Of a DNA stretch of 64,000 nucleotides, positions 8,464 through 27,805 are shown piece by piece (positions within the stretch are counted from its first letter, which is position 1; each line of letters starts with the position of its first letter). A program made the translations under genes and the position numbers. The notes under the pieces were generated by a model. The model was not told where the DNA came from, searched no databases, and saw only the letters and a program-made list of their open reading frames with translations. The stretch is from Glycomyces sambucus (lineage in GTDB: Bacteria; Actinomycetota; Actinomycetes; Mycobacteriales; Micromonosporaceae): positions 62,001-126,000 of the forward strand of contig NZ_FNGF01000004.1 in the NCBI RefSeq assembly GCF_900102815.1. Direction: 5' to 3'.

Positions 8464-8469
8464 GCCGCG

Positions 8470-10086: not shown

Positions 10087-10114
10087 GGCGGTTCCCTTTC
10101 GGATGAGCGTGCGT

Positions 10115-11854: not shown

Positions 11855-11932
11855 GAAAGGCGGGGCCTCCTCATCCGATTCGCGGCTTCACGGTCGCCCC
11901 ATGTTGCAGCATTGAAAACTTTCTTCACATCG

Positions 11933-11961
11933 TTGACAAGTCAAGAAGTGTTCCGTCATGC
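11933..11961 (+). promoter_or_regulatory. Possible promoter of the peptide-transport operon
   Basis: A consensus TTGACA -35 hexamer at 11933-11938 is followed after 17 nt by TCATGC, a poor -10. It lies about 90 bp upstream of the binding-protein gene in locally AT-rich DNA. Only the -35 is convincing. Confidence 0.35.
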
Positions 11962-12048
11962 TGTCCGGTACATTCCAGGACCCGCCGCGCCCCGGCGCCC
12001 GCGGGCGATCCTGGCGCCCGGAACCGAAAAGCGAGGACCTGCACCCCG

Positions 12049-13863
12049 ATGAATCCCCATGCCATGACGCGGCGGTTCCTCGCCGCCGCGGCCGCGCTCC
12101 TGATGTCGGCCGGAGCGCTGGCCGTCGCCGCGCCGAGCGCCGCGGCCCAAGAGGACGAGACCGACTCCCTGCTCATCGCCACGAGCCAGGAGGTCGACAC
12201 CTTCAACCCCTTCAAGCGGCGCTTCGTCATCACCTACAACACCAGCATCATGACGTACGAGACGCTCGTGCGCATGGGCACCGACTACGAGCCGGTGCCG
12301 GGTCTGGCGACCGAGTGGGAGGAGTCCGCGGACGGTCTCACCTGGACGTTCCAGATCCGCGAAGGCGCGAAGTGGTCGGACGGCGAGCCGCTGACGGCCC
12401 AGGACGTGGCCTACACGTACGGCCTGCTCATCGAGAACCAGGCCATCCGCGACTGGAACATCGACTTCGCCGGGAACCTGGTGAGCGCCGAGGCCCCCGA
12501 CGACACCACGTTCGTGCTCACGCTCGCCCAGCCGTCCCCGTGGGACGTGCTCACCCGCGAGGTGTTCATCGTCCCCGAGCACGTCTGGTCGGAGTTCCCC
12601 GACCCGTCGGCCGACGACGCGAACGAGCTGCCGCTGGTGGGCTCGGGCCCGTTCCAGGTGGCCGAGTACGCGACCGACGAGTTCATCCGGCTCGAGGCCA
12701 ACGAGGAGTACTGGGACGGCGCGCCCGGCTTCGACGAGGTGGTCTTCGACTACTACGCCGAGAACGACGCCGCCGTGGCCGCGCTCGAAGCGGGCGAGGT
12801 CGACATCGTCAGCGGCCTGAACCCGGCCCAGATCGGGGCGCTGGAGGGCCAGGACGGGATCACCGTCAACAACGCCCAGGGCCGCCGGTACGTCTCCCTC
12901 ACCATCAACTACAACTCGGTGACGCAGGACGGCACCGAGTTCGGGAACGGGCACCCCGCGCTCAAGGACCCGGTCGTCAGGCAGGCCATGCACATGGCGA
13001 TCGACAAGCAGGCCCTCGTGGACACCGTCCTCGACGGCAACGGCCAGCCCGCGACCTCGATCATCCCCACTATCTTCGAGCAGTACCACTGGGACGGCGG
13101 CGACCAGCTCCTCGGCTTCGACATCGCGGGCGCCAACGCCCTCCTCGACGAGGCCGGGTACGTGCGCGGCGACGACGGCATCCGGACCATGCCCGGCACC
13201 GGCGAGCGCCTGAGCTTCCGGTTCTACCAGCACGCCGACAACACCGACTACGCCACGATCGTGCAGTTCGTGTCCGAGTGGTGGGCCGAGCTGGGCCTGG
13301 AGATCAAGCCCGAGGCCATCGAGCAGGGGAGCCTGAACGACCTGGCGTACCTGGGCGAGTTCGACATCGCGTTCTCGGGCTGGGGCGTGGGCCCGAACCC
13401 GACCGAGCAGCTGGGCATGCACACGTGCGCGGTGCTCCCGACCCTCACCGACGGGTCGGAGCGGTCGAGCGAGAACAACTACTGCAACGCCGAGTTCGAC
13501 GCGCTCCACGAGCAGCAGAAGGTCGAGTCCGACCCCGACGCGCGCGCCGAGCTGGTGCGCCAGCAGCAGGCGCTCATGTACGCCGACACCCCCGTGATCT
13601 ACCTGTACTACCAGAACACGCTGGAGGCGTACAACAGCGACAAGATCTCCGGCATGGTGCTCCAGCCCAGCGAGGGCGGCATGATCACCGGCCAGCAGGG
13701 CTACGCGTGGGCGTACGTGACGGCGCAGCCGGCCGGCGGCGCCGAGGACGAGGGCACCCCGGTGTGGGTGTGGATCGCCGTGGCCGCCGCGGTCGTGGTG
13801 GTCGTCGCCGGCGGCGCCGTGTTCGCGCTGCGGCGCAGGAAGACGGCGGACGAGCGCGAATGA
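12049..13863 (+). CDS. Peptide ABC transporter substrate-binding protein with C-terminal membrane anchor
   Basis: Family 5 (DppA/OppA-like) extracellular binding protein, 604 residues, delivering peptides to the permeases encoded next. Signal peptide at 1-34 (RRFLAAAAALL...AAAQ); the SBP_bac_5 fold follows, with typical GLATEWEESADGLTWTFQIREGAKWSDGEPLTAQDVAYT at about 84-122 split across motifs and a C-terminal substrate-fold end near 555. No lipobox cysteine is seen. Instead residues about 572-592 form a hydrophobic helix followed by RRRK, predicting a C-terminal membrane anchor. First gene of a tightly overlapping operon (stop overlaps the next ATG). Ligand is inferred to be cell-wall-type peptides from the downstream peptidases, not seen directly. 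Confidence 0.88.
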   Translation: MNPHAMTRRFLAAAAALLMSAGALAVAAPSAAAQEDETDSLLIATSQEVDTFNPFKRRFVITYNTSIMTYETLVRMGTDYEPVPGLATEWEESADGLTWTFQIREGAKWSDGEPLTAQDVAYTYGLLIENQAIRDWNIDFAGNLVSAEAPDDTTFVLTLAQPSPWDVLTREVFIVPEHVWSEFPDPSADDANELPLVGSGPFQVAEYATDEFIRLEANEEYWDGAPGFDEVVFDYYAENDAAVAALEAGEVDIVSGLNPAQIGALEGQDGITVNNAQGRRYVSLTINYNSVTQDGTEFGNGHPALKDPVVRQAMHMAIDKQALVDTVLDGNGQPATSIIPTIFEQYHWDGGDQLLGFDIAGANALLDEAGYVRGDDGIRTMPGTGERLSFRFYQHADNTDYATIVQFVSEWWAELGLEIKPEAIEQGSLNDLAYLGEFDIAFSGWGVGPNPTEQLGMHTCAVLPTLTDGSERSSENNYCNAEFDALHEQQKVESDPDARAELVRQQQALMYADTPVIYLYYQNTLEAYNSDKISGMVLQPSEGGMITGQQGYAWAYVTAQPAGGAEDEGTPVWVWIAVAAAVVVVVAGGAVFALRRRKTADERE

Positions 13864-14921
13864 CGGCCGACGGTCCGACACCCGCGGGCGGGGCTCCGGC
13901 CCCGTCCGCGGGGCGCCGCCCGGGCAGCGCCGCCCGCGAGCGCGGCTCCAGCGGCTTCGGGCGCTACCTCTTCAAGCACGTCAGCGGCGCCGCGGTGTCG
14001 CTCCTGCTGGTGCTGTTCTCGTCGTTCTTCATCTTCCGGCTCATCGCCGGGGACCCGATCGACCAGCTCACCAAGGAGCGGCCCGTCTCGCCGGAGGAGC
14101 GCGCCGCGCTCCGGGCCGAACTCGGCCTCGACCGGCCCATGTGGCAGCAGTTCTGGGACTACATCACCGGCACGCTCACGATGGACCTCGGCGACTCGTT
14201 CCAGTACCGGCGCCCGATCTTCGACCTCATCGTCGAGCGGCTGCCGGCCACGATCCTGCTCTCGGGCACCGGCATGGTCCTGGCGGTCCTGCTCGGCTTC
14301 TGGATCGGGACCCGCTCGGGCTGGAAGCAGGGCAGCCGCTTCGACCGCGGGCACGTGGCGACCGGCCTGCTCCTGTACTCGGCGCCGACGTTCTGGCTCG
14401 GCATGATCGTCATCCTGGTCTTCGCCCGGTACCTGGGCCTCTTCCCCGTCAACGGGATGCGCTCGCCGAGCACGCCGCCGGAGTTCTGGCCGCAGGCGCT
14501 CGACATCGCGCACCACCTGGTGCTGCCGGTGCTCACGTACACGGCGGTCGTGTACGCCGGGTACCTCATGATCATGCGGTCGTCCATCCTGGACGAGATC
14601 GGGAACGACTACCTCACCACCGCGCGGGCCAAGGGCCTGCGCGACGACCAGGTGCGCGACCGGCACGCGGTGCCCAACGCGCTGCTGCCCACGGTGACCC
14701 TGGTGTTCCTCGCGATCGGCGGGGTCGTCAACGGCTCCATCGTGACCGAGACGGTCTTCTCCTGGCCGGGCCTGGGGAGCCTGTTCGTGCAGGCGATCTT
14801 CTACCCCGACCGGCCGGTCCTCCAGGCGCTGTTCGTGCTGTTCTCGGCCTCGACCATCCTCGCGGTGCTCGCCGCCGAGGTCCTCTACTGGTTCATCGAC
14901 CCACGGATTCGGAAGTCATGA
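13860..14921 (+). CDS. Peptide ABC transporter permease (DppB-like)
   Basis: 353-residue inner-membrane permease of the BPD_transp_1 family. After an unusual hydrophilic Pro/Gly/Arg-rich N-terminus of about 35 residues there are six predicted helices, starting with the DppB-type first helix followed by the RLIAGDPIDQLTKERPVS loop, and the EAA-type cytoplasmic loop with TARAKGLRDDQVRDRHAVPNALLPT at about 257-281 that contacts the ATPases. ATG overlaps the stop of the binding-protein gene by 4 bp (ATGA), as do the next two genes, indicating translational coupling. Confidence 0.92.
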   Translation: MTADGPTPAGGAPAPSAGRRPGSAARERGSSGFGRYLFKHVSGAAVSLLLVLFSSFFIFRLIAGDPIDQLTKERPVSPEERAALRAELGLDRPMWQQFWDYITGTLTMDLGDSFQYRRPIFDLIVERLPATILLSGTGMVLAVLLGFWIGTRSGWKQGSRFDRGHVATGLLLYSAPTFWLGMIVILVFARYLGLFPVNGMRSPSTPPEFWPQALDIAHHLVLPVLTYTAVVYAGYLMIMRSSILDEIGNDYLTTARAKGLRDDQVRDRHAVPNALLPTVTLVFLAIGGVVNGSIVTETVFSWPGLGSLFVQAIFYPDRPVLQALFVLFSASTILAVLAAEVLYWFIDPRIRKS

Positions 14922-15859
14922 CGGCATCCCCAACCCCGCCCCCGCCCCTGGCGGCCTCGCCGCGGCGCGCGCGGCGCCAGCTCGCCCGGTCGCGCCGGCG
15001 GCAGTCGTTCCTGCGGTCCTGGGCCGCCTACCGGGCCCAGCGGACCGGCATGATCGGGCTGGTCCTCCTGGGCGTCATCGTGGTCCTCGCGCTCGCGGCC
15101 CCGGTGCTGGTCGACGAGTCCGCGCTCTCGGTCACGCAGGCGACCGGCGGGCGCATGGAGCCGCCGAGCGCGGCGTTCCCGCTCGGCACCGACGAGGTCG
15201 GCCGCTCGATCCTGGCCCTGACGCTGTGGGGCTCGCGGCTCTCGCTCCTCATCGGGCTCACCGCCACGGTGGTCGCCATCGTCATCGGCACGACCGTGGG
15301 GGTCACCAGCGGCCACGTGGGCGGCTGGTACGGATGGTTCGCGCTGCGGATCTCCGACTGGTTCATGGTGCTGCCGAGCCTGGTCGTGGCCATCGCGCTC
15401 CTCGCGGTGCTCGGCCGGAGCATGGGCACGACCATCGCCGTCATCGCGCTCGTGTCGTGGTCGGGCACGACCCGGCTGGTGCGGGCGCAGACGCTCACCG
15501 TCCAGTCCCGGCCCTACCTGGAGCGCGCCAGAGCGCTGGGCGCCGGGCACTGGCACCAGATGACCAAGCACATCCTGCCGAACGTCCTCCCCCTCGTGCT
15601 CGCCAGCGCGACGCTGCTGGTGCCCTCGGCGATCCTCATGGAGTCCTCGCTCGCGTGGCTGGGCCTGGGCGACCCGAACGTGGTGTCGTGGGGGTCGATC
15701 CTCAACCGCGCCAGCGACAACGGCGCGGTGTCGGCGCACGCGTGGTGGTACCTGCTGCCGCCGGGCCTGGCGATCCTCATCGTGGTGCTCGCGTTCATGA
15801 TGTGCGGGCGGGCCCTGGAGGCCGTGTTCAACCCGAGGCTGCGAGGTGAGCCCTCATGA
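14918..15859 (+). CDS. Peptide ABC transporter permease (DppC-like)
   Basis: 313-residue second permease. N-terminal cytoplasmic stretch rich in Arg (residues 15-40), the OppC_N-type first helix at about 45-65, then FPLGTDEVGRSILALTLWGSR, the hallmark of DppC/OppC proteins, and the EAA loop with ERARALGAGHWHQMTKHILPN at about 202-222. Pairs with the preceding DppB-like protein to form the channel. Starts with ATGA overlap with the upstream gene and ends with ATGA overlap into the first ATPase gene. Confidence 0.92.
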   Translation: MTASPTPPPPLAASPRRARRQLARSRRRQSFLRSWAAYRAQRTGMIGLVLLGVIVVLALAAPVLVDESALSVTQATGGRMEPPSAAFPLGTDEVGRSILALTLWGSRLSLLIGLTATVVAIVIGTTVGVTSGHVGGWYGWFALRISDWFMVLPSLVVAIALLAVLGRSMGTTIAVIALVSWSGTTRLVRAQTLTVQSRPYLERARALGAGHWHQMTKHILPNVLPLVLASATLLVPSAILMESSLAWLGLGDPNVVSWGSILNRASDNGAVSAHAWWYLLPPGLAILIVVLAFMMCGRALEAVFNPRLRGEPS

Positions 15860-16839
15860 CGCTCCTGGAGTTCCGGGACGTGCACGTCACGTACACCGGG
15901 TCGCGGGGCCGCATCCCGGCCGTGCGCGGCGTGGACCTGAAGGTGGAGGCCGGGACGACCGTGGGCATCGCGGGCGAGTCGGGCTGCGGCAAGTCGACGC
16001 TGGCGATGGCGGTGCTGCGGCTGCTGCCGAAGTCCGCGGAGGTGCGCGGGGAGATCCTGCTCGACGGCGAGGACCTGCTCCGGATGGGGTGGGGCCGGCT
16101 GCGGGCGGTGCGGTGGACGGGCGCGTCGATCGTGTTCCAGGGGGCGATGCACTCGCTCAACGCGGTGCAGCGGATCGGGCGGCAGGTGGCCGAGCCGATG
16201 CTGGTGCACGACAAGGACTTGAGCCCCGCGGCGGCCGCGAAGCGGGCCGAGGGCCTGCTGGAGCGGGTGGGGCTGCCGCCCTCGCGGACGCGCAGCTACC
16301 CGCACGAGCTGTCGGGCGGGCAGCGCCAGCGCGTGATGATCGCGATGGCGCTCGCGTGCGACCCCGACCTCATCATCGCCGACGAGGCGACGACGGCCCT
16401 CGACGTGATGGTGCAGGCCCAAGTGCTGCAGCTGATCTCGGGCCTGGTGTCGGAGCGGGGCGTGGGCATGGTGATGATCAGCCACGACCTGTCGGTGCTG
16501 TCGGCGGTGTGCGACACCGCGGCGGTCATGTACGCGGGCCGGATCGTGGAGCAGGGGCCGGCGCACGAGGTGTTCGCGCAGGCGCGGCACCCGTACTCGG
16601 CGGCGCTGGGGGCCGCGTTCCCGGTCATCGGGGACCCGGCGGCGCGGCTGCGGCCGGGGGGCCTGGCGGGCGACCCGCCGGACCCGGCGCGGCTGCCGGA
16701 GGGCTGCTCGTTCCGGCCGCGGTGCGCGGTGTCGGTGGAGCGGTGCGGCGAGGAGTCGCCGGAGCTGCTGCGGATCGAGGGCGCGCGGTCGAGCGCGTGC
16801 TTCGTGGCCCAGGAAGGGGAGCCCGTTGTCATCGGTTGA
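15856..16839 (+). CDS. Peptide ABC transporter ATPase (DppD-like)
   Basis: 327-residue cytoplasmic ATPase. Walker A GESGCGKST at about residues 38-46, signature LSGGQRQR at about 153-160, Walker B LIIADEATTALD, and the C-terminal oligo_HPY domain with the cysteine pattern CSFRPRCAVSVERC typical of DppD/OppD (possible iron-sulfur or zinc site). Overlaps the upstream permease by 4 bp and the second ATPase by 14 bp. Confidence 0.93.
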   Translation: MTLLEFRDVHVTYTGSRGRIPAVRGVDLKVEAGTTVGIAGESGCGKSTLAMAVLRLLPKSAEVRGEILLDGEDLLRMGWGRLRAVRWTGASIVFQGAMHSLNAVQRIGRQVAEPMLVHDKDLSPAAAAKRAEGLLERVGLPPSRTRSYPHELSGGQRQRVMIAMALACDPDLIIADEATTALDVMVQAQVLQLISGLVSERGVGMVMISHDLSVLSAVCDTAAVMYAGRIVEQGPAHEVFAQARHPYSAALGAAFPVIGDPAARLRPGGLAGDPPDPARLPEGCSFRPRCAVSVERCGEESPELLRIEGARSSACFVAQEGEPVVIG

Positions 16840-17845
16840 GGCGCGAGTGGACGCGGTGGCGGACAAGGTCCTGACGGCCCGGGGCCTGCGGGTCGCGTTC
16901 GGGCTGCCGGGCGGGAGGACCGCGCGGGCCGTGGACGGGGTGGACCTGGACGTGGCGCCCGGCGAGATCGTCGCCCTGGCCGGGGAGTCCGGCTGCGGGA
17001 AGACGACGCTGGCGCGCACGCTGCTGGGCCTGGAGAAGGCCACGAGCGGGGAGGTCGCGTTCGGCGGGGTGCCGCTGGGGCGCTCGTCGAAGGCGCTCAA
17101 GGCGTACCGGCGGCAGGTGCAGCTGGTGCTCCAGGACCCGTCGGGGGCGCTGAACCCGCGGCACACCGTGTACGACGCGGTGGCCGAGGGGCTGCGCATC
17201 CACGGGATCGGCGACGACGAGCCGGGGCGGGTCGCGGACGCGCTCGCGCGGGCGGGGCTGCGGCCGCCGGAGCGGTTCTTCCTGGCGTACCCGCACGAGC
17301 TGTCGGGCGGGCAGCGCCAGCGCGTGGTCATCGCGGGGGCGCTGGTGCTGGAGCCGAGCATCCTCGTGGCGGACGAGCCGGTGGCGTCGCTGGACGCGTC
17401 GGTGCGCGGGGAGATCCTGTCGCTCCTGCTGCGGCTCAAGGAGGACGCGGGGCTCGGGGCGCTGGTCATCACGCACGACCTGGGTCTGGCGTGGAGCATC
17501 GCGGACCGGATCGCGATCATGTACCTGGGGCGGATCGTGGAGCAGGGGCCGGTGGAGCAGGTGCTCACCGACCCGCGGCACCCGTACACACGGGCGCTGG
17601 TGTCGGTGCTGCCAGGGTCGTTGGAGAGAGCGCAGTCTCCTGTCGCGGAGCCGATCGTGCTGGCGGGCGAGCTGCCGGACGCCTCGCGCATCCCGGGCGG
17701 GTGCCGGTTCCGGCCGCGCTGCCAGGAGGTGGCGTCGGGGAACGCGCTGGCGGTGCTGGGGCAGTGCGAGGGCGAGGACCCGGCGCTGGACGCGGAGGCG
17801 CACGCGGCCGCGTGCCACCTCGTGCATGCGAGGATGGCGGCGTGA
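16826..17845 (+). CDS. Peptide ABC transporter ATPase (DppF-like)
   Basis: 339-residue second ATPase. Walker A GESGCGKTT at about 53-61, signature LSGGQRQR at about 160-167, Walker B ILVADEPVASLD, and the C-terminal oligo_HPY cysteines (CRFRPRCQEV). TTG 16826 is the earliest start and has AGGAAGGGGA 5 nt upstream; GTG codons about 20 nt downstream are alternatives. It would pair with the DppD-like ATPase. Its stop overlaps the GTG of the D-aminopeptidase gene. Confidence 0.92.
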   Translation: MSSVEARVDAVADKVLTARGLRVAFGLPGGRTARAVDGVDLDVAPGEIVALAGESGCGKTTLARTLLGLEKATSGEVAFGGVPLGRSSKALKAYRRQVQLVLQDPSGALNPRHTVYDAVAEGLRIHGIGDDEPGRVADALARAGLRPPERFFLAYPHELSGGQRQRVVIAGALVLEPSILVADEPVASLDASVRGEILSLLLRLKEDAGLGALVITHDLGLAWSIADRIAIMYLGRIVEQGPVEQVLTDPRHPYTRALVSVLPGSLERAQSPVAEPIVLAGELPDASRIPGGCRFRPRCQEVASGNALAVLGQCEGEDPALDAEAHAAACHLVHARMAA

Positions 17846-18672
17846 AGATCCTCATCAGCGCCGACATGGAGGGCGCGACGGGTGTCACCTGCCCGGCGGA
17901 CGTGCTGCCGGGCGGGCCGGGCTGGGAGCGGATGCGGCCGGTGTTCACCGGTGACGTGAACGCGGCGGTCCAGGGCCTGTTCATGCAGGGCGCGGACGCG
18001 GTGGTGGTGAACGAGGCCCACTGGTCGATGCGCAACCTGCTGCTGGAGCGCCTGGACGCGCGGGCGGCGATGATCACCGGCCGCCACAAGGACCTGTCCA
18101 TGATGGAGGGCGTGCAGCACGGGGACGTCGACGGCGTGGTGTTCCTGGGGTACCACGCGGGGGCCGGGTCCGAAGGGGTGCTGGCGCACACGTACCTGGC
18201 GAACTCGGTCACGGGCGTGTGGCTCGACGGGGTGCGCGCGAGCGAGGGCCGCCTGAACGCGGCGGTGGCCGCCGAGTTCGGGGTCCCGGTCATCATGGTG
18301 ATCGGCGACGACAAGACGATCGAGGACGCGGAGGGCTATGCGCCCGAGGCGGTCGGCGTCCGGGTGAAGACGTGCGTGTCGCGGTACGCGGCGCTGTGCG
18401 ACCCGCCGGAGGTCACGGCCGAGGCGATCGCGGCGGGGGCCGCAGCGGCGGCGTCGCTCGCGGTCAGGCGTGAACCGGTCGTGACCGAGCACCGGGTGGA
18501 GGTCGAGTTCGACGCCGACCACCTGGCGCGCGCGGCGACGGTGGTCCCGGGCGTGGAGGTGTGCGGGGAGCGTCGCATCGGGTACGACTCCCCGACGATG
18601 TACGAGGCGATCCGCTGCTTCAAGGCGGTCACGACGCTGGCGAGCGCGGCGATGGAGGAGGAGTATGGCTGA
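17842..18672 (+). CDS. D-aminopeptidase, M55 family (DppA-like)
   Basis: Zinc D-aminopeptidase, 276 residues, releasing N-terminal D-amino acids from short peptides in the cytoplasm; Bacillus DppA (274 residues) is the model and prefers D-Ala peptides. Metal ligands are conserved: D8 and E10 in ISADMEG, H60 in VVNEAHWS, H105 in LGYHAG and E135 in RASEGRLN. GTG start at 17842 overlaps the ATPase stop. Placement directly behind a Dpp transporter repeats the Bacillus dpp operon and points to import of D-amino-acid-containing peptides, hence peptidoglycan stem peptides. Confidence 0.92.
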   Translation: MKILISADMEGATGVTCPADVLPGGPGWERMRPVFTGDVNAAVQGLFMQGADAVVVNEAHWSMRNLLLERLDARAAMITGRHKDLSMMEGVQHGDVDGVVFLGYHAGAGSEGVLAHTYLANSVTGVWLDGVRASEGRLNAAVAAEFGVPVIMVIGDDKTIEDAEGYAPEAVGVRVKTCVSRYAALCDPPEVTAEAIAAGAAAAASLAVRREPVVTEHRVEVEFDADHLARAATVVPGVEVCGERRIGYDSPTMYEAIRCFKAVTTLASAAMEEEYG

Positions 18673-19957
18673 CGGTCGGGCACTCGAGGAGGTCGTGGCG
18701 TTCACGCGGGACCTGATCCGGATCGACACGACCAACCGGGGCGGGGGCGAGGGGAACGAGCGCGGGGCCGCCGAGTACGCGGCCGCGAAGCTCGCCGAGG
18801 CAGGCTTGGAGCCGGTGGTCGTGGAGAAGGCCCCGAACCGGTCGAACGTGGTGGCGCGGCTGGAGGGCACCGACCCGTCGGCGCCGGCGCTGCTGGTCCA
18901 CGGGCACCTGGACGTGGTGCCGGCCGAGGCCGCCGACTGGACCGTGGACCCGTTCTCGGGTGAGATCGACGACGACGGGATGCTGTGGGGCCGCGGGGCG
19001 ATCGACATGAAGGGCATGGACGCGATGATGCTCGCGGCGGCCCGGTCGTGGGCGCGCGAGGGCGTGCGGCCGCGGCGGTCGATCGTGTTCGCGTTCGTCG
19101 CCGACGAGGAGGCCAGCGCCGAGTACGGGTCGCGGTTCCTCGCCGAGCAGCACGCGGACCTGTTCGCGGGCTGCACCGAGGGCGTCTCGGAGTCGGGCGG
19201 GTTCACGTTCCACAGCGGCGGCATGCGGATCTACCCGATCGCCGCGGGCGAGCGGGGCACGGCGTGGCTGGAGCTGACCGCGCGCGGCCGGGCCGGGCAC
19301 GGGTCGAAGAAGAGCCCGGACAACGCGGTGGTGAAGCTCGCGGCGGCGGTGGCGCGGATCGGCGCGCACGAGTGGCCGCTGCGGGTCACGCCCGTGGTGG
19401 AGGCGGCGGTGACGGAGCTGGCGGCGCTGCACGGCGTCGAGCCCGACTTCGCGGACCTGTCGGGCCTGGGCGAGGCGGCGCAGCTGGTCGAGGCGACCCT
19501 GCGCAACAGCGCGAACCCGACGGTCCTGGAGGCGGGCTACAAGGTGAACGTGGTGCCCGAGCACGCCCGCGCCGAGGTGGACGGCCGGGTGGTGCCCGGC
19601 GGCGACGCCGAGTTCGAGGCGACCATGGACGAGCTGTGCGGGCCGGACGTGGCGTGGCGGTACGCGCACCGGGACCGGCCGCTGACGGCGCCGGTGGACT
19701 CGCCGACGTTCGCGGCGATGCGCGCGGCGGTGAAGAAGTACGACCCGGAGGGGCACCCGGTGCCGTTCTGCATGTCGGGCGGGACCGACGCGAAGCAGTT
19801 CTCGCGCCTGGGGATCACCGGGTACGGGTTCTCGCCGCTGGCGCTGCCGCCCGAGTTCGGGTACGGGAAGCTCGCGCACGGCGTGGACGAGCGGGTCCCG
19901 GTCGAGGGGCTCCGGTTCGGCCTGCGGGTCCTGGACGACTTCCTGCTCAACGCTTAG
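18665..19957 (+). CDS. M20-family metallopeptidase
   Basis: 430-residue cytoplasmic di-zinc amidohydrolase/peptidase of the M20 (ArgE/DapE/CPG2) family. Catalytic motifs: LLVHGHLDVVPA with H81 and D83, GRGAIDMKG with D114 as bridging ligand, ADEEAS with general base E148 and ligand E149, and a C-terminal GGTDAKQFSRLGITGYGF. Likely cleaves dipeptides or N-acyl amino acids produced from imported peptides; exact substrate unknown. The ATG overlaps the D-aminopeptidase gene by 8 bp, so it belongs to the same operon. Confidence 0.92.
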   Translation: MADGRALEEVVAFTRDLIRIDTTNRGGGEGNERGAAEYAAAKLAEAGLEPVVVEKAPNRSNVVARLEGTDPSAPALLVHGHLDVVPAEAADWTVDPFSGEIDDDGMLWGRGAIDMKGMDAMMLAAARSWAREGVRPRRSIVFAFVADEEASAEYGSRFLAEQHADLFAGCTEGVSESGGFTFHSGGMRIYPIAAGERGTAWLELTARGRAGHGSKKSPDNAVVKLAAAVARIGAHEWPLRVTPVVEAAVTELAALHGVEPDFADLSGLGEAAQLVEATLRNSANPTVLEAGYKVNVVPEHARAEVDGRVVPGGDAEFEATMDELCGPDVAWRYAHRDRPLTAPVDSPTFAAMRAAVKKYDPEGHPVPFCMSGGTDAKQFSRLGITGYGFSPLALPPEFGYGKLAHGVDERVPVEGLRFGLRVLDDFLLNA

Positions 19958-19965
19958 GAGACGAC

Positions 19966-21945
19966 GTGAAGCGAACCCCGTACGGCGCCTGGGACTCCCC
20001 CATCGGCACGGACCTGGTCGCCGCCTCGGACGGCAGGCCGGGGTTCCTCGGCGCCGTCGGCGGCGAGCTGTGGTGGACCGAGCCGCGCCCGTCCGAGGGA
20101 GGGCGGCGGGCCCTGGTGCGGCGCAAGGAGGACGGCACCACCGAGACGGTGCTGGCGGCGCCGTGGAACGTGCGCAGCCGGGTCCACGAGTACGGCGGCC
20201 GCCCGTGGGCGGGCGCGATCTCCGACGATGGCGACCCGATCGTGGTCTTCGCGAACTACGCCGACCAGCGCCTGTACGTGCACCTGCCCGAGCGCTGGGA
20301 CGAGCCGCTGCCGGTGACGCCGGCGCCGGCGGTCCCGGGGGCGCTGCGGTGGTCGGAGCCCGTGATCGACCTGGAGCGGTTCGAGGCGTGGGCGGTCCTG
20401 GAGGAGCACACCGGGCCGAACCCGACCGACGTGCGGCGCGTGATCGCCGCGGTGGACCTGACCCGCTACGGGGACGACGCGAAGGTCCGCGAGCTCACCG
20501 ACGACGCGTACCGGTTCCTCGCCTGCCCCCGGATCAGCCCGAGCGGCGGCGGGATCGCGTGGATCGCCTGGAACCACCCGCACATGCCGTGGGACGAGAC
20601 CGAGCTGCGGGTCGCCGAGATCACCGCCGACGGGGAGCTGGCCGAGGCCCGCACCGTCACCGGGGGCGGCGGCGAGTCGATCGCGCAGGTCGAGTGGACC
20701 CGCGACGACACGCTCGTGTTCGCCGGGGACCGCACCGGCTGGTGGAACCTGCACTGGATCGACCCGCACACCGGCGAGCGCGGGGCGGTCCTGGAGGCCG
20801 AGGCCGAGTTCGCAGGTCCCCTGTGGACGCTCGGGTCGCAGTGGTTCCAGATCCTCGCCAGCGGCGACATCGCCGCCGTCCACGGCAAGGGCGAAGGGCG
20901 CCTGGGGATCTTCGACGCGTGGGAGCGGCGGATGAACCTCGTCGAGGGCCCGTGGACGGACTGGGCGCCGGGGCTCGCCGCGCTCGGCGACACCGTGTAC
21001 GGCCTGGCCGCGAGCCCGCACACCGGCTACGAGGTGGTCGAGGTCGACTCCCGCACCGGCGCCGCGAAGGTGGTGGCCGCCGAGCACGTGGACCGGGTCG
21101 ACCCCGCGTACCTGCCGGTGCCGCAGGACCGGGTGTTCACCGGTCCGGGCGGGCGCGAGATCCACGCCCACGTCTACCCGCCGCGCAACCCGCTCCACGA
21201 AGGGCCCGAGGGCGAGCGGCCCCCGTACGCCGTGTGGGTCCACGGCGGGCCCACCAGCGGCGTGCGGGCCGTGCTCGACATGGAGCTGGCGTACTTCACG
21301 TCCCGGGGCATCGGCGTCGTGGAGGTGAACTACGGCGGGTCGACCGGGTACGGGCGGGCCTACCGGGAGCGGCTGCGCGAGGCGTGGGGCGAGGTCGACG
21401 TCGAGGACTGCGCGGCGGTCGCCAGGGCGCTCGCGGCCTCGGGCGAGGCGGACGCGGGGCGGATCGCGATCCGCGGCGGCAGCGCCGGGGGCTGGACCTC
21501 CGCGGCGTCGCTCGCCTCCCCTGCGGCGCAGGGGGTGTACGCGTGCGCGGTGGTGAAGTACCCGATCCTGGACCTGTCGCTGTGGAGCGGCGACGACACG
21601 CACGACTTCGAGTCCCAGTACGTGTACTCGCTCGTGGGCGGGCCGGAGGTGCTGGAGGAGCGGTCGGTCGAGCGGTCCCCGGTGCACCACGCCGGGCGGA
21701 TCGAGGTCCCGTTCCTGCTCCTCCAGGGCCTGGAGGACGAGATCTGCCCGCCCGCGCAGGCCGAGCTGCTGCTGGAGCGCATCGCGGGCCGCGGGGTGCC
21801 GCACGCGTACCGGACCTACGAGGGCGAGCAGCACGGGTTCCGGCGGGCCGAGACCATCGCCGACGCCGTGCTCGCCGAGCACGCCCTGTACGCGGAGGTC
21901 TTCGGGTTCGAGGGGCCCGGCTTCGACCTGGGGCTGGCGCCGTGA
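19966..21945 (+). CDS. S9 prolyl-oligopeptidase-family serine peptidase
   Basis: 659-residue cytoplasmic peptidase or acylaminoacyl-peptidase. An N-terminal beta-propeller (about 1-390) gates the alpha/beta-hydrolase domain, which carries the catalytic triad S506 (GGSAGG), D591 (LEDEICPP) and H623 (GEQHGF), plus the oxyanion motif VWVHGGPTSG. Propellers restrict such enzymes to short peptides. GTG start at 19966 is supported by AGGAG 5 nt upstream; 8 bp after the M20 gene. Together with the D-aminopeptidase, M20 and LD-carboxypeptidase it forms a cytoplasmic peptide-degrading set behind the importer. Confidence 0.92.
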   Translation: MKRTPYGAWDSPIGTDLVAASDGRPGFLGAVGGELWWTEPRPSEGGRRALVRRKEDGTTETVLAAPWNVRSRVHEYGGRPWAGAISDDGDPIVVFANYADQRLYVHLPERWDEPLPVTPAPAVPGALRWSEPVIDLERFEAWAVLEEHTGPNPTDVRRVIAAVDLTRYGDDAKVRELTDDAYRFLACPRISPSGGGIAWIAWNHPHMPWDETELRVAEITADGELAEARTVTGGGGESIAQVEWTRDDTLVFAGDRTGWWNLHWIDPHTGERGAVLEAEAEFAGPLWTLGSQWFQILASGDIAAVHGKGEGRLGIFDAWERRMNLVEGPWTDWAPGLAALGDTVYGLAASPHTGYEVVEVDSRTGAAKVVAAEHVDRVDPAYLPVPQDRVFTGPGGREIHAHVYPPRNPLHEGPEGERPPYAVWVHGGPTSGVRAVLDMELAYFTSRGIGVVEVNYGGSTGYGRAYRERLREAWGEVDVEDCAAVARALAASGEADAGRIAIRGGSAGGWTSAASLASPAAQGVYACAVVKYPILDLSLWSGDDTHDFESQYVYSLVGGPEVLEERSVERSPVHHAGRIEVPFLLLQGLEDEICPPAQAELLLERIAGRGVPHAYRTYEGEQHGFRRAETIADAVLAEHALYAEVFGFEGPGFDLGLAP

Positions 21946-22859
21946 CCCCGCTGCACCGGCCGCGCCGGCTCGTCCCCGGCGACCGGGTCGCCGTCGTCTC
22001 CCCCGCCGGGCCGACCCCGCCCGCGAACCTCGAAGCGGGACTGGGGGTCCTGCGCTCGTGGGGTCTGGAGCCGGTCCTGGCGCCGCACGCGGCGGCGCAG
22101 GGCGCGTACCTGGCCGGGAGCGACGCCGAGCGGGCCGCGGACTTCGAGGCCGCGTGGGCCGACCCGTCGTTCGCGGCCGTGGTCTGCGCGAGGGGCGGCT
22201 ACGGGGCGCAGCGGATGCTCGACCGCGTCGACTGGGTCCGCCTGCGCGGGGCCGAGCCGAAGGCGTTCGTCGGCTTCAGCGACATCACCGCCGTGCACGA
22301 GGCGATCGCGCTCAACCTCGGCACCGCCACGGTCCACGGCCCCATGCCGGGCTGGTCGGCGTTCGTCGCCGACGCGGCGATGCGCGAGCACCTGCGGCTG
22401 ACGCTGTTCGAGCCCGAACGCGTGCAGACGCTCGCGCCGCCGGGCGCGAAGGCGATCGTCGGCGGGACGGCGGAAGGCGTGACCGTGGGCGGGACGCTGA
22501 CGCTGCTGGCCTCGGGGATCGGCACCGCCGAGCACCGGGAGAGCCTCTCGGGAGCCCTGCTGCTCCTGGAGGACGTCGGGGAGGCGCCGTACCGGCTCGA
22601 CCGGGCCCTGACGCAGCTGCTGCGGGCCGGATGGTTCGACGGGGTCGCCGGGGTGGTCCTCGGATCGTGGACCGACTGCGGGCCCGAGGCGGAGGTCCGG
22701 GCCCTGTTCGAGGACCTCCTCGGGGGCCTCGGCGTGCCGGTGGCGTGGGACTTCGGGTTCGGGCACTGCCCCGGTTCACTCTCGGTGCCGTTGGGGCTCA
22801 AAGGGGTCCTCGACGCCGACGCCGGGACGCTCCAGTTCGGAGCCCCCGCGCTGCGCTGA
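21942..22859 (+). CDS. LD-carboxypeptidase, S66 family
   Basis: 305-residue cytoplasmic serine peptidase of the LdcA/MccF family. LdcA removes the terminal D-Ala from murein tetrapeptides during recycling. Nucleophile S113 in VGFSDIT, catalytic Glu in LLLEDVGEAPYRLDR (E210 or E214 by alignment) and H275 in FGFGHCPG form the Ser-Glu-His triad; the N-terminal VAVVSPAGP motif is typical. GTG start overlaps the S9 peptidase stop by 4 bp. The related MccF hydrolases cleave microcin C-type compounds, so self-immunity is an alternative, but the operon favours cell-wall peptide recycling. Confidence 0.9.
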   Translation: MTPLHRPRRLVPGDRVAVVSPAGPTPPANLEAGLGVLRSWGLEPVLAPHAAAQGAYLAGSDAERAADFEAAWADPSFAAVVCARGGYGAQRMLDRVDWVRLRGAEPKAFVGFSDITAVHEAIALNLGTATVHGPMPGWSAFVADAAMREHLRLTLFEPERVQTLAPPGAKAIVGGTAEGVTVGGTLTLLASGIGTAEHRESLSGALLLLEDVGEAPYRLDRALTQLLRAGWFDGVAGVVLGSWTDCGPEAEVRALFEDLLGGLGVPVAWDFGFGHCPGSLSVPLGLKGVLDADAGTLQFGAPALR

Positions 22860-22987
22860 GGCCGGCCGCGCCAGTTCTGAAAATTCTCTCCGTAGTCTTG
22901 CCTTCACATGAAATCTTCTGCCAGGATGAGCGGATCGGGCAAACCCCATCGAATGAGCCCCGGATCCGCACAGACTGGAGTCGCCCC

Positions 22988-24772
22988 ATGGAGACGCATC
23001 CCCGCCGGACCGTGCTCGCGGCAGCCCTCGGCGCCGCCGCGGCGGCGGCCGCCGCAGGCACCGCGCAGGCGCACGGCGGCCACGGCGACCGCGACGAGCG
23101 CCGCTTCGTCAAGCGCCGCCTCAAGGCCATGAGCCTGGAGGAGAAGGTCGGCCAGCTCTTCACCACCTACGCCTACGGGCAGACCGCCGACACCGCGGTC
23201 GCCGCCGACGTCGCGAGCAACCAGGCCGCGCACGGGGTCGACAACGCCGCCGAACTCGTGCGGACCTACCACCTCGGCGGGATCATCTACTTCGCCTGGT
23301 CGAACAACGTCGCGAACCCCGACCAGATCACGGCCCTCTCCAACGGCCTCCAGGACGCGGCCCTCGACGGCTGCGGCACGCCCCTGTTCATCGCCACCGA
23401 CCAGGAGCACGGCCTCGTCACCCGCATCGGCCCGCCCGCGACCCAACTCCCCGGGGCGATGGCCCTCGGCGCCACCCACGACCCCGAGGCCGCCCGCGCC
23501 GCGGCCGTCGTCGCCGGGACCGAGCTGCGCGCGATGGGCCTGAACCAGAACTTCGCGCCCGACGCCGACGTCAACGTCAACCCCGCCAACCCCGTGATCG
23601 GCGTGCGCTCCTTCGGGTCCGACGGCGAGCACGTCGCGGCCTTCGTTGCCGCCCAGGTCGAGGGCTACCAGGCGCGCGGCGACCTCGCCGCCACCGTCAA
23701 GCACTTCCCCGGGCACGGCGACACCGAGGACGACAGCCACAGCGAGCTGCCGCGGATCGACCACACCTACGAGGAGTGGCGCGAGATCGACGCCCCGCCG
23801 TTCCGCGCCGCCATCGAGTCCGGCGTCGACCTCGTGATGACCGCGCACATCCAGTTCCCCGCCCTCGACGCCTCCCTGCGGCCCGCGACGCTGTCGGAGG
23901 AGATCCTCACCGGGCTGCTGCGCGACGAGCTCGGCTACGACGGGGTCGTCATCACCGACTCCCTGCGCATGGAGGGCGTGCGCAACGGCTACGGCGACGA
24001 CCGCATCCCCGTCCTCGCGCTCCTCGCCGGCGCCGACATCCTGCTCATGCCCGAGCACATCGACATCGCCTACAGCGCGGTGCTCGCGGCCGTCCGCGGC
24101 GGCGAGCTCTCCCGCCGGCGCATCGACGAGTCGGTCACCCGCATCCTCGGCCTGAAGTACCGGCTCGGCCTGTTCGGCGACCCGTACGCCGACCCCGCAC
24201 TCGTCGACGACGTCGTGGGCGTCCCGGCGAGCCTCGAAGCGGCCCAGGCGCTCTCGGACCGGACCACGACCCTCGTCACCAACGACGGCACCCTCCCGGT
24301 GCCCACCGACGGCGGCTCGGTGCTCGTCACCGGATGGGGCGCGACCACCGTCCCGCGGATCGCCGCCGAGTTCACCAACCGCGGCTGGAGCCCCGCGAGC
24401 CTGGTCACCGGCGCCGCGCCCACCCAGGCGCAGATCGACGCGGCCGTGGCCGCCGCCGCGGGCAAGGGCCTGGTCGTGGTCTCCACCAACAACACCAAGC
24501 TCAACCCCGGCCAGGTGTCCCTCGTGGCGGCGCTCGCGGCCACCGGCGTCCCGGTCGTCGCCCTCGGCGTCCAGAACCCCTACGACATCGCGTACCTCGG
24601 CGACCACCCCAACGCCTACCTCGCGACCTACTCGTACTCCCTCGACGGCCTCGAATCGGCCGTCCACGCGATCCTCGGCTCGGTCAACCCCGCCGGACGC
24701 CTGCCGGTCGACATCCCCACCGCCGACGGCACCGGGATCCTGTTCCCGTTCGGCCACGGCCTGAGCTACTAG
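22988..24772 (+). CDS. nagZ: Exported beta-N-acetylglucosaminidase NagZ (GH3)
   Basis: 594-residue GH3 enzyme removing non-reducing-end GlcNAc from muropeptides. N-terminus has a Tat-like signal (RRTVL plus an Ala-rich core, cleavage near AQA-HG at 28). The NagZ catalytic loop KHFPGHGDTEDDSH at 238-251 supplies the Asp-His acid/base pair and D324 in VVITDSLRMEG is the nucleophile. A second domain of about 200 residues follows, as in the two-domain Bacillus enzyme, ending with FPFGHGLSY. The frame is open far upstream but ATG 22988, with GGAG 8 nt before, begins the signal peptide. Only 10 bp precede the NamZ gene, matching the nagZ-namZ adjacency of Bacillus. Confidence 0.92.
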   Translation: METHPRRTVLAAALGAAAAAAAAGTAQAHGGHGDRDERRFVKRRLKAMSLEEKVGQLFTTYAYGQTADTAVAADVASNQAAHGVDNAAELVRTYHLGGIIYFAWSNNVANPDQITALSNGLQDAALDGCGTPLFIATDQEHGLVTRIGPPATQLPGAMALGATHDPEAARAAAVVAGTELRAMGLNQNFAPDADVNVNPANPVIGVRSFGSDGEHVAAFVAAQVEGYQARGDLAATVKHFPGHGDTEDDSHSELPRIDHTYEEWREIDAPPFRAAIESGVDLVMTAHIQFPALDASLRPATLSEEILTGLLRDELGYDGVVITDSLRMEGVRNGYGDDRIPVLALLAGADILLMPEHIDIAYSAVLAAVRGGELSRRRIDESVTRILGLKYRLGLFGDPYADPALVDDVVGVPASLEAAQALSDRTTTLVTNDGTLPVPTDGGSVLVTGWGATTVPRIAAEFTNRGWSPASLVTGAAPTQAQIDAAVAAAAGKGLVVVSTNNTKLNPGQVSLVAALAATGVPVVALGVQNPYDIAYLGDHPNAYLATYSYSLDGLESAVHAILGSVNPAGRLPVDIPTADGTGILFPFGHGLSY

Positions 24773-24782
24773 GAGGCGCGCA

Positions 24783-26033
24783 GTGAAACGCAGGACGGTC
24801 ATCGGCGGCGCCGCCGCAGGCGCCGCGCTCGCACTCGGCACCGGCGCCTCGGCCGCCGCCCACGGCGGACGGCGGGTCCGCACCGGCGTGGAGGTCCTCG
24901 CCCGCAAGGACTTCCGCGAACTCTCCGGCCAGAGGGTCGGCGTCATCTCCAACCCGACCGGCGTGCTCCCGGACCTGAGCCACGAAGTGGACCTCATGCA
25001 CGCCAGCGGCAAGGTCGACATCGCGGCGGTCTTCGGGCCCGAGCACGGCTTCCGCGGCGTCTCCCAGGCCGGCGAGGGCGAGGACTTCTTCCTCGACGCC
25101 AAGACCGGCCTGCCGGTGTACAACGCCTACAACGACATGGACCGCATGGCCGAGGTCTTCGCCGAGACCGGGATCGAGACCGTGGTCTTCGACATCCAGG
25201 ACGTCGGCGCCCGCTTCTACACCTACATCTGGACCATGTACCTCGCCATGGAGGCCGCCGGGCAGCTCGGCCTGCGGTTCGTGGTCCTCGACCGGCCCAA
25301 CCCCGGGTCCGCGCTCGCCGCCAGCGGGCCGGTCCTCCACCCCGAGCACGCCACGTTCGTGGGCCTCAAGCCCATCGCCCAGCGCCACGGCATGACCGTG
25401 GGCGAGCTCGCGAAGCTGTTCAACGGCGAGTTCCTGGCGGCCCCCGTCGACCTGACGGTGGTGAAGATGGAGGGCTGGCGCCGCGGCATGTACTTCGAGG
25501 ACACCGGGCTGCCGTGGGTGGCCCCGTCCCCGAACATGCCCACCGTGAACACGGCCGTCGCCTACCCGGGCACGTGCCTGTTCGAGGCCACCGCGCTCTC
25601 GGAGGGGCGCGGCACCACCAAGCCCTTCGAGTTCCTCGGCGCGCCCGAGATCGACCACGCGTGGTCGGAGTCGCTGGAGGGGCTCCCGGGCGCTTACTTC
25701 CGTGAAGCGTATTTCACCCCCACATTCTCGAAATGGTCCGGAAAGGTCTGCGGCGGGGTCGAAGTGCAAGTCACCCGCAGGGATGAATTCGATCCGATCA
25801 GGACGGCGCTGGCGATGATCGTCGCCCAGCGCCGGGCCTTCCCGCAGTACGGCTGGCGGTCGCAGGACGTGACGTCGTTCTGGCTGGACAAGCTGTCGGG
25901 GAACCAGGCCGTGCGCCTCGCGATCGAGGCCGGCGCCGACGTCGACGAGGTGGCGTCGGTCTGGACCGACGAATTGGATGCGTTTTCCGAGCAAAGAGAG
26001 TCGTACTTGCTCTATCGCGGCACCGCTCAGTGA
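24783..26033 (+). CDS. namZ: Exported exo-beta-N-acetylmuramidase NamZ (DUF1343, GH171)
   Basis: 416-residue protein of the DUF1343 family; its Bacillus member YbbC/NamZ cleaves MurNAc from the non-reducing end of peptidoglycan after NagZ has removed GlcNAc. Tat signal KRRTVIGG with Ala-rich core (1-27). Family motifs: GVISNPTGV, FGPEHGFRG, FDIQDVGARFYTY, VVLDRPNP and VAPSPNMPT. GTG start 10 bp after nagZ with AGGAGG upstream. Codon use relaxes locally: codons at about 25700-25800 and the last 20 codons use GAA, TAT, AAA, TTG, AGA and TTT, unlike the rest of the gene. Confidence 0.9.
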   Translation: MKRRTVIGGAAAGAALALGTGASAAAHGGRRVRTGVEVLARKDFRELSGQRVGVISNPTGVLPDLSHEVDLMHASGKVDIAAVFGPEHGFRGVSQAGEGEDFFLDAKTGLPVYNAYNDMDRMAEVFAETGIETVVFDIQDVGARFYTYIWTMYLAMEAAGQLGLRFVVLDRPNPGSALAASGPVLHPEHATFVGLKPIAQRHGMTVGELAKLFNGEFLAAPVDLTVVKMEGWRRGMYFEDTGLPWVAPSPNMPTVNTAVAYPGTCLFEATALSEGRGTTKPFEFLGAPEIDHAWSESLEGLPGAYFREAYFTPTFSKWSGKVCGGVEVQVTRRDEFDPIRTALAMIVAQRRAFPQYGWRSQDVTSFWLDKLSGNQAVRLAIEAGADVDEVASVWTDELDAFSEQRESYLLYRGTAQ

Positions 26034-26056
26034 TGGCACGATAACCAGGAGACACG

Positions 26057-27805
26057 ATGCAGCGTCGAACCATGCTCGGGGGCGCGGCGGGGGCGCTGTG
26101 GTCGGCGTTCGCGCTCGGCTCCCGCGCCAACGCCGAGGAGCGCCCCTCCATGCCCGACCTGACCGGCCCCCCGAGTGCCGGACCGTACGACGTGACCTTC
26201 CCCGAACATCCGCGCGAACTGCGGTACGGGCCCTGTTCGGAAGCGCGCCTGACCGCCGCCCACGTCGACCTCATCACCCCCCGACTCAAGTCCTATATGG
26301 AAGGATCGGCCCCCTCCTTCCCCGGTTTCACCGTGCTGGCCGCGCGCCGCGGCGTGGTCGTCGCGCACGAGGCCGGCGGGCACCGCCTGCGCTACTCCGG
26401 GTGGGACGACGAGACCGAGACCGCGGCCGAGCTGCCCGAGTCCGAGTGGCTGCCGGCCGAGACCGGCACGGTCTACGACCTCGCCTCGATCTCGAAGCTG
26501 TTCACCGCCACCGTCACCGGCCGCCTCATCGACGACCACGTGGTGGACCTGAAGCTCCCGGTGGTGGACTACCTGCCCGAGTTCGACTCCGCCGACCCGG
26601 CGAAGTCCCCGATCACGCTGGAGCAGCTGCTCTCCCACACCTCGGGGATGATCTCGTTCATCAACCTGTACGACAAGCCCGACGACGCGGCGCGGATGGC
26701 GGCGATCTACGCGCAGCCGCTGCGCCGGGTGCCCGGCAGCGGCTACGAGTACTCCGACCTCAACCTCATCGTCCTGGGCAAGGTCCTGGAGCGGGTGACC
26801 GGCCAGCGCCTCGACGAGCTGGTGGCCGAGTACGTGTGCGAACCGCTGGGCCTCAGGGACACCGGGTACAACCCGGTGGACCGGGCGCGGACGGCGGCGA
26901 CCGAGTTCCAGCCGTGGACGGGCCGGGGCACGGTGCACGGGGAGGTCCACGACGAGAACGCGTGGGCGTTCGGCGGCGTCGCCGGGCACGCGGGCGTGTT
27001 CGCGACCGCGTGGGACCTGGCGGTGTTCGGGCAGATGATCCTCAACGGCGGCCGGTACGGCGACGCGGAGATCGTCAGCGAGGCCACGGCGCGCTCGGTG
27101 TTCACCGACATGAACGCCGGGATGGGCGAGGCCGCGGCCCGCGGGCTCGGCTGGCAGCTGGGCCAGCGCTGGTACATGGACGCGATGAGCTCGCCGGTCA
27201 CGGTGGGGCACACGGGGTACACGGGCACGTCGATCGTGCTCGACCCGCTCGCGGGCACGCTGCTGGTGCTGCTGACGAACCGGGTGCACCCGACGCGGAA
27301 CCGCGGGACGGCCAGCGCGTACCGGCGGGCGGCCTCGCGGCCGCTGGGCCGGGCGGTGCCGGTGCGGCCCGAGCGGGGCCGGGACGCGTGGTTCGCGGGC
27401 CAGGTCGACGCCTCGACCGCGACCTTGACGGCGTCGCTGCCGCGCGCGACCGACTGCGCGACGGCGGCGTTCGCGCTCTGGTACGACACCGAGGCGACCG
27501 ACGTTGGCGTGCTGGAGGCGAGCCCGGACGGGACGGCGTGGACGCCGGTGCCGCTGGACCTGCGGACCGAGGACCACTGCTGGCGGACCGAGGGGGCGTT
27601 CTCGGGCTACTCGGGGCGCCAGTGGATCAGGGCGTCGGCGGCGCTGCCGGACGGCAGCCGGAAGGTGCGCTGGCGGTACACGTCGGACCCGGTGTACCAG
27701 GGCCGGGGCGTGTACGTGGACGCGATGGAGGTCCGCGAGGGCCGCGCCGTCCTCTGGGAGGACGGCGACGGCGCCGACGCGGTGGGCTGGGAGAAGGCCC
27801 GGGAG
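26057..27805 (+). CDS. Exported AmiE-like S12 serine hydrolase, stop codon missing
   Basis: Beta-lactamase-fold (PF00144) serine hydrolase behind nagZ and namZ. In Bacillus the same cluster carries AmiE (YbbE), a member of this fold that splits MurNAc from the stem peptide, so that role is inferred. Tat signal QRRTMLGG (1-26); catalytic SISK at 144-147, YSDLN as the YxN-type motif, and GHTGYTGT as the third motif; an added C-terminal beta-rich domain of about 130 residues (from about 455). The frame has no stop where the protein should end: it stays open to 29014 across the opposite-strand epimerase gene. The end given (GAG codon 27803-27805) is the last plausible codon; a TAA one base out of frame lies at 27807-27809. 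Confidence 0.8.

Follow-up and report, generated by a model that had tools for sequence, protein, structure and literature searches.

Two adjacent Glycomyces transcription units for cell-wall salvage probably belong to one MurR regulon

To our knowledge, work on peptidoglycan recycling in Gram-positive bacteria has dealt mainly with the sugars, and the co-ordination of sugar and peptide recovery is still open. According to the available part of one source (PMC5061867), MurR of Escherichia coli represses in the absence of the 6-phosphate of N-acetylmuramic acid (MurNAc), and Bacillus subtilis carries the cluster murQ-murR-murP-amiE-nagZ-ybbC. The available part of another (PMC2954226) places B. 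subtilis ykfA-D beside dppB-E, with YkfB and YkfC processing the tripeptide. Here we describe a region of Glycomyces sambucus, positions 12049-27805 of a 64,000-nucleotide stretch (henceforth the window), in which a Dpp-type peptide importer and several peptidases stand next to NagZ-, NamZ- and AmiE-like enzymes with export-type N-termini. We consider it probable (roughly 0.78), judging from the sequence, that the region consists of two adjacent transcription units of one cell-wall scavenging regulon under MurR, a regulator of the RpiR family; in our best reading, this regulon would join wall digestion, stem-peptide import and MurNAc catabolism. The observations behind it are the gene content, an operator shared by both units, the position of that operator between murQ and murR, and its conservation. 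Given that in Glycomyces, a genus of soil bacteria, the two gene groups are often adjacent and that their control sequence is common with the sugar-recycling genes, sugar and peptide salvage look like one co-ordinated programme.

Pfam domains and reading of the sequence gave twelve genes on one strand, in the order SBP-DppBCDF-M55-M20-S9-S66, a gap, and GH3/NagZ-NamZ-S12 (SBP, solute-binding protein). We refer to the first nine (SBP to S66) as module A and to the GH3, NamZ and S12 genes as the trio. Genes of module A overlap or almost touch, and 128 nucleotides (nt) separate the S66 stop (22859) from the GH3 start (22988). The initial annotation had the coordinates and family names right by Pfam; its count of nine genes becomes nine plus three, twelve in all. 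The host genome (our label G000) comprises 5.6 Mb in 16 contigs, the window being C12:62001-126000. The genes are as follows.

12049..13863, + strand: SBP, peptide-type solute-binding protein (SBP_bac_5, 311 bits; C-terminal membrane anchor by reading)
13860..14921, + strand: DppB-like permease (BPD_transp_1; internal start placed at 13860)
14918..15859, + strand: DppC-like permease (BPD_transp_1; internal start placed at 14918)
15856..16839, + strand: DppD-like ATPase (ABC_tran and oligo_HPY)
16826..17845, + strand: DppF-like ATPase (ABC_tran and oligo_HPY)
17842..18672, + strand: M55 D-aminopeptidase, DppA-like (Peptidase_M55, 290 bits; 1HI9, 124 bits; internal start placed at 17842)
18665..19957, + strand: M20 peptidase (Pfam M20; NCBIfam subfamily PRK07906 above cut-off)
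19966..21945, + strand: S9 peptidase (Pfam S9; internal start placed at 19966)
21942..22859, + strand: S66 LD-carboxypeptidase-like protein (Pfam S66 N and C; internal start placed at 21942)
22988..24772, + strand: GH3 beta-N-acetylglucosaminidase, NagZ-like, export-type N-terminus (GH3 N and C; internal start placed at 22988)
24783..26033, + strand: NamZ-like exo-N-acetylmuramidase, export-type N-terminus (NamZ_N 253 and NamZ_C 168 bits)
26057..27805, frame open to 29014, + strand: S12 (beta-lactamase-fold) hydrolase, AmiE/PBP4B-like, export-type N-terminus (S12/Beta-lactamase, 210 bits)

Side-by-side comparison of the upstream regions revealed the same architecture before SBP and GH3, namely a TGAA-N7-TTCA-like dyad followed by a -35-like element (TTGAC/TTGCC), a second copy of the dyad and a -10-like element. 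The -35-like element lies 19 nt from the GAA of the dyad and the second copy 31 nt from the first (element names below are putative).

11914..11958, + strand: promoter/operator A, before SBP, from the upstream-region comparison
11913-11927, + strand: putative first dyad of operator A, TGAAAACTTTCTTCA
11933-11938, + strand: putative -35 element of operator A, TTGACA
from 11945, + strand: putative second copy in operator A, GAAGTGTTCC
11957-11962, + strand: putative -10-like element of operator A, CATGCT
22879..22923, + strand: promoter/operator B, before GH3, from the upstream-region comparison; score 4.0 (low) with the murQ-trained matrix described below
operator B, + strand: putative first copy GAAAATTCTCTCC and second copy GAAATCTTC, the latter from 22910
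22898-22903 and 22922-22927, + strand: putative -35 (TTGCCT) and -10-like (CAGGAT) elements of operator B

A 45-nt pattern describing this double operator had two sites in the window and none in 100 shuffles; a generic promoter and terminator scan of the window detected neither promoter A nor promoter B. Since the S66-GH3 gap holds its own promoter-like site, two transcription units are likely, and module A and the trio are probably transcribed from separate promoters. The conserved promoter in this gap also makes one long operon, expressed by read-through alone, unlikely.

We scanned the host genome and 22 genomes of the genus for the 45-nt pattern with up to 3 mismatches, using the reversed pattern as a control. 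The whole host genome contained two sites, both those of the window, and the 22 genus genomes contained 41 (versus 0 for the control), 37 of which precede SBP or GH3, including in genomes where the modules are unlinked. Of the other four, one (G164, locus L109) precedes S9-S66, one (G162:C45) precedes an M23 gene, and two near contig ends (G155:C124 and G160:C197) were assigned by sequence only. What constitutes independent support here is the scarcity of other matches together with the sites before unlinked modules. As both modules carry the operator whether a member of the genus has them joined or not, shared control appears to be independent of joining. G164 lacks the Dpp, M55 and M20 genes at its locus (L109:5579-8912) yet retains the operator before S9-S66.

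The palindrome recurs beside the sugar-recycling genes. MurQ and a MurNAc kinase, which the initial annotation had not seen, are indeed missing from the window, but MurQ is encoded on another contig (G000:C13:104841-105710; 340 bits versus a cut-off of 302), with a candidate BadF-type kinase nearby. Between murQ and a divergent rpiR-family gene that we designate murR (HTH_6 64 bits, SIS 77 bits; NCBIfam MurR models under cut-off), the palindrome occupies G000:C13:105778-105792, one of its 14 places in the host genome. The palindrome with its copy at 31 nt was present between divergent murQ and murR in all 22 genus genomes: 21 of these sites have at most 1 mismatch, and the remaining one (G167, where murR is also present) has 2. 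In the sister genus it lies directly upstream of murR in the four loci read (L104, L105, L215 and L220). When all 22 genus genomes were searched for this pair at no more than 1 mismatch, 56 rows were obtained versus 6 for the reversed control. Specifically, 21 were between divergent murQ and murR (each verified by tblastn), 15 before SBP and 5 before GH3 (G155:C124 and G160:C197 being placed among the SBP and GH3 rows by sequence only), and the other 15 corresponded to 12 places outside these three settings.

We built a position matrix from the 21 murQ-murR sites alone and compared it with 20 column-permuted matrices. Promoter A gave its first and second matches in the 64-kb window (16.7 and 13.0); best scores of the permuted matrices there ranged from -0.2 to 12.9, two of the 20 reaching 12.9. 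In the murQ locus the same matrix gave its second-best match at the promoter of a GH25 lysozyme gene, and in each of the four unjoined trio loci scanned its best match was the trio promoter. The proposed single pathway, with sugars released outside and stem peptides broken down inside the cell, is supported in part, mainly by a shared promoter/operator that persists where the halves are unlinked; the two halves probably have a promoter each, and MurQ is encoded elsewhere behind a similar operator.

The 12 off-module places had not been used in drawing the pattern. Behind the one in G070 comes the GH25 lysozyme gene next to murR; in all 7 loci read, the promoter of this lysozyme gene has both the 19-nt and the 31-nt spacing. 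A gene combining Inhibitor_I36 with Peptidase_M23 follows the places in G119, G151, G155 and G162, and G161:C7 precedes a further Peptidase_M23 gene, making five M23 genes in all. G161:C5 precedes an exported-type protein with PG_binding_1 at 22.9 bits, just under the cut-off of 23 (export of off-module proteins was judged by eye from their N-termini). The union of an I36 peptidase-inhibitor domain and an M23 peptidase domain in one gene, seen behind the operator-like sites at L209:6726, L210:6455, L110:6271 and L208:6041, is an odd pairing in its own right.

The surroundings of murQ in the host (L099; G000:C13:96001-114000) comprise a sugar-type binding protein, two permeases, a second rpiR gene, the BadF-family kinase, murQ, murR, GH25 and a second GH3 gene, the last two adjoining each other downstream of murR (L099:11560-14275). 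From place and family, the sugar ABC system and the kinase (best NCBIfam match NagK_SO3507, under cut-off) are candidates for MurNAc import and MurNAc-6-phosphate formation. Between the second rpiR gene and the kinase (L099:7271-7413), the 7 loci read share a conserved motif that differs from the MurR operator. Because the second rpiR gene and the kinase diverge from a region with this different motif, uptake and phosphorylation may answer to a second regulator; for the same reason the second RpiR gene (L099:6339-7271) was dropped as the regulator of the region studied here.

From these observations we infer a scheme that extends to MurR as the binder, repression, the inducer, the substrates of the enzymes and the flow of material. 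The exported NagZ, NamZ and S12 amidase would cut wall fragments to N-acetylglucosamine, MurNAc and stem peptides, helped in this outside digestion by two enzymes encoded elsewhere, the GH25 lysozyme and (in some species only) an M23 endopeptidase. The Dpp-type importer would take in the stem peptides, from which S66 would trim D-Ala inside the cell, M55, M20 and S9 finishing the peptide breakdown. MurNAc would be imported, perhaps by the sugar ABC system near murQ, and phosphorylated, perhaps by the neighbouring BadF-type kinase, before MurQ converts it. MurR would bind the two TGAA-N7-TTCA-like copies, which are 31 bp or about three helical turns apart, one presumably just upstream of the -35 element and the other in the -35/-10 spacer; such positions most naturally suggest that paired MurR dimers repress. 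Repression would last until MurNAc-6-phosphate builds up and, if this releases MurR, the sugar signal would also switch on peptide uptake. We lean towards a broader statement as well, namely that one MurNAc-responsive RpiR repressor commands the whole Glycomyces chain from the exported lysozyme and endopeptidase, by way of NagZ, NamZ and the amidase, to peptide import, the intracellular peptidases and MurQ, peptide salvage thereby being induced by a sugar signal, and that the regulon was kept through the genus as its genes were reshuffled, with joining in only part of it.

The joined arrangement itself has a narrow distribution. Among 150 order-level genomes, NamZ was found in 36, M55 in 37 and both in 26. 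Three of these 26, all of the host genus, have the two genes on one contig and no more than ~8 kb apart; some of the other 23 are fragmented drafts, where such closeness might go unseen. Within the 22 genus genomes, NamZ was present in 20 and M55 in 19, and gene order established by tblastn was joined on one contig in 14 (window, L006, L007 and L009-L019) at 63-95% protein identity. A strain-specific accident, raised as a possibility in the initial annotation, is ruled out by these 14 genomes. G155 is consistent with joining but broken by contig ends (L040 and L041). Seven genomes are not joined (G119, G154, G160, G163, G164, G165 and G167): in G165 module A ends at S66 and is followed by an epimerase gene (L021), with the trio elsewhere (L020), and in G154 an S12-like gene follows S66, with neither GH3 nor NamZ.

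Among the matches listed, at least 80 M55 loci came from named genomes, read up to 10 kb on each side with several shortened by contig ends. The nearest named records were of Glycomyces, M55 of G. terrestris being 91% identical to that of the window. At least 7 loci were from this genus, of which 5 are joined, one has the S12 gene alone and one has no trio gene; there was also one 5-kb metagenome-assembled contig resembling G163, and at least 72 others, nearly all from Streptomyces. In these non-Glycomyces loci M20 stands beside M55 in 71 of 72 and the trio in 0 of 72. Across 29 order-level NamZ loci (read over 12-20 kb, a few shorter), murR is close to NamZ in 19, mostly with murQ, and M55 and SBP are there in none; a partnership of trio, MurR and MurQ, as in Bacillus, is thus common in the order. 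In Glycomyces the trio is located apart from murR-murQ. In a tree of MurR and MurQ the 14 joined genomes form one side of a branch (support 91/66), and in a NamZ tree they group weakly with G155 (80/70). These supports are weak, and joining may have arisen once or more often. We regard joining as a local trait of part of one genus.

Two explanations compete with a MurR regulon. The shared promoter could belong to another regulator or a special sigma factor, such as one responding to starvation or envelope stress, with murR as a further target and something other than MurR as the binder. The sites before SBP, GH3 and GH25 do all stand at a fixed distance from a -35-like TTGAC/TTGCC, and the host genome has two further RpiR genes besides murR; this explanation nevertheless sits badly with the dyad symmetry of the operator, with the sites between murQ and murR throughout the genus and those immediately before murR in the sister genus, which do not have the fixed -35 distance in common, and with the different motif in the divergent region of the second RpiR gene, so that we hold it to be improbable. 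Still harder to accept is a chance neighbourhood of two unrelated units, one a general peptide importer plus housekeeping peptidases, the other a trio that degrades muropeptides. The same promoter on both units, also where they are unlinked, and the order kept in 14 of 22 genus genomes speak against chance, as does the placement of S66 next to the Dpp importer, which recalls ykfA-D beside dppB-E of B. subtilis (in the available part of PMC2954226); such neighbours would nonetheless agree with the separation of M55 and NamZ in 23 of 26 order-level genomes, with M20 following M55 in 71, and the trio in none, of the 72 non-Glycomyces loci listed, and with the 2.8 kb of other DNA that splits S66 and GH3 in G162.

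A MurR regulon, which we prefer, faces difficulties of its own. The bare 15-nt palindrome is unspecific (14 places in the host genome versus 9 for the reversed control) and, because the 45-nt pattern was built from the SBP and GH3 promoters, its matches there are not independent. The trio promoter of the window is the weakest link: it lacks the right dyad half (TCTCC instead of TTTCA) and its matrix score of 4.0 ranks sixth, within the permuted range. In joined genomes generally the first copy of the trio promoter has lost its right half, and the GH3 promoters of the window and of other joined genomes are unmatched by the palindrome with its 31-nt copy. In G164 (L109) the top matrix match is not at the operator, and the kinase and sugar importer near murQ follow the different conserved motif, with the second RpiR gene. 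Five of the 12 off-module places (three in G152, one in G158, and G161:C10, beside which no open reading frame was examined) had no wall gene found adjoining, about the number predicted by the control (6 rows), and no M23 target was found in the host genome, for which no dedicated search was made.

The protein assignments behind the scheme vary in firmness. Twin-arginine-like N-termini are readable on the GH3, NamZ and S12 proteins (PRRTVL, KRRTVI and QRRTML), in agreement with the Tat-type signals originally proposed for all three. The NamZ-like protein has both NamZ domains above cut-off, with 4k05 and 4jja as nearest solved chains; NCBIfam has no family for it. By its domains it qualifies as an exo-beta-N-acetylmuramidase, with predicted release of MurNAc, and we take YbbC of B. 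subtilis to be NamZ. The GH3 protein (GH3 N 287 and GH3 C 52 bits) matches B. subtilis YbbD/NagZ (3bmx) with 282 bits and NCBIfam PRK05337 with 171.6 bits, under the cut-off of 207; KHFPGHG...DSH, which we take to be the NagZ-type GH3 motif, is readable in it. The S12 protein, in which SISK is readable as SxxK, is a putative AmiE-type amidase (AmiE/PBP4B-like); its best NCBIfam match is PBP4B (158.7 bits versus a cut-off of 385) and its best PDB match IS11 (62 bits). Its frame has no stop at 27805 and stays open to 29014, through a convergent epimerase-family gene (27806-29095, - strand), an overrun of 400 codons opposite that gene. In 13 joined relatives with the S12 end visible, the stop falls 0-4 codons past the corresponding point in 9, and the overrun is 56-84 codons in the other 4 (L007, L009, L016 and L040). 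In the M55 protein, D8, E10, H60, H105 and H116 align with 1HI9 (DppA), in which the equivalent residues presumably have their known roles, and whose gene we take to lie in the B. subtilis dpp operon. The protein misses the cut-off of NCBIfam NF058634, the B. subtilis-type DppA equivalog (173.7 of 430 bits), and is thus a probable relative of DppA that NCBIfam does not class as the same enzyme.

Several side observations concern the neighbourhood and more distant relatives. Divergent from SBP, at 6778-11812 (- strand), two Asp-Al_Ex exchanger genes flank an aminotransferase-fold gene (perhaps an aspartate 4-decarboxylase). Operator A sits within the intergenic region common to SBP and these genes, which might handle alanine from stem peptides; parts of the group adjoin SBP in 7 other genus loci (L007, L009, L010, L012, L015, L019 and L022). 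Intact clusters can carry extra DNA, namely ~1.4 kb between M55 and M20 in G150 (L014:8023-9479) and the 2.8 kb in G162 (L018:3546-6361). In another family of the order (L243:432-7858; G040), an S12-like gene with 38% identity comes after SBP-DppBCDF-M55. Upstream of NamZ in the sister genus (L025, L029 and L030), two GTAG-N-(A)AC/AGTTTC-like elements ~32 nt apart were seen by eye around TTGAC, a layout that perhaps repeats the double-operator design. A weak GTGG-TA-CTT-C-like element overlapping the -10 box is common to the promoters of SBP, GH3 and murR in another family; a MurR-dpp link beyond the genus based on it was dropped, as it may be plain promoter similarity.

If a MurR regulon is the correct reading, a compact operator would link sugar and peptide recovery and would predict which of the exported wall hydrolases are used to feed on wall material, and Glycomyces would offer an evolutionary series in which a common operator occurs with and without gene joining. 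No actinobacterial MurR regulon or cluster of this kind was described in the paper titles and abstract openings among the matches listed, a search outside which most subscription papers fall.

Like the B. subtilis cluster murQ-murR-murP-amiE-nagZ-ybbC, as far as the available part of its description goes, the Glycomyces system places NagZ, a NamZ-type enzyme and an S12 hydrolase in one control group with MurR and MurQ. Unlike that cluster, its trio lies away from murR-murQ and beside the Dpp-peptidase operon, no murP was seen in the loci read (no search aimed at MurP was made), and the regulon seems to extend to stem-peptide import and wall hydrolases. The Dpp importer accompanied by an LD-carboxypeptidase and an M55 relative of DppA resembles B. 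subtilis dppB-E/ykfA-D (available part of PMC2954226), whereas the window has M20 and S9 in place of the YkfB epimerase and YkfC endopeptidase, and an operator common with murQ-murR; no YkfB epimerase or YkfC NlpC/P60 gene is among the nine genes of module A, the rest of the genome not having been searched. As in the E. coli murR-murQ divergon (with murP and yfeW, which encodes PBP4B, the best NCBIfam match of the window S12 protein, below cut-off), murR of Glycomyces is divergent from murQ with the operator between them, but E. coli has one divergon and Glycomyces at least four promoters, two of them in the window. The GH3-NamZ-S12-murR-murQ clusters of the same order share the trio, and differ in that murR is close to NamZ in 19 of 29 loci, M55 and SBP being absent from all 29, whereas in Glycomyces the trio and murR-murQ are apart. 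The core is thus the known MurR-MurQ-NagZ-NamZ-AmiE salvage system, and what is apparently new is its widening to stem-peptide import and wall hydrolases.

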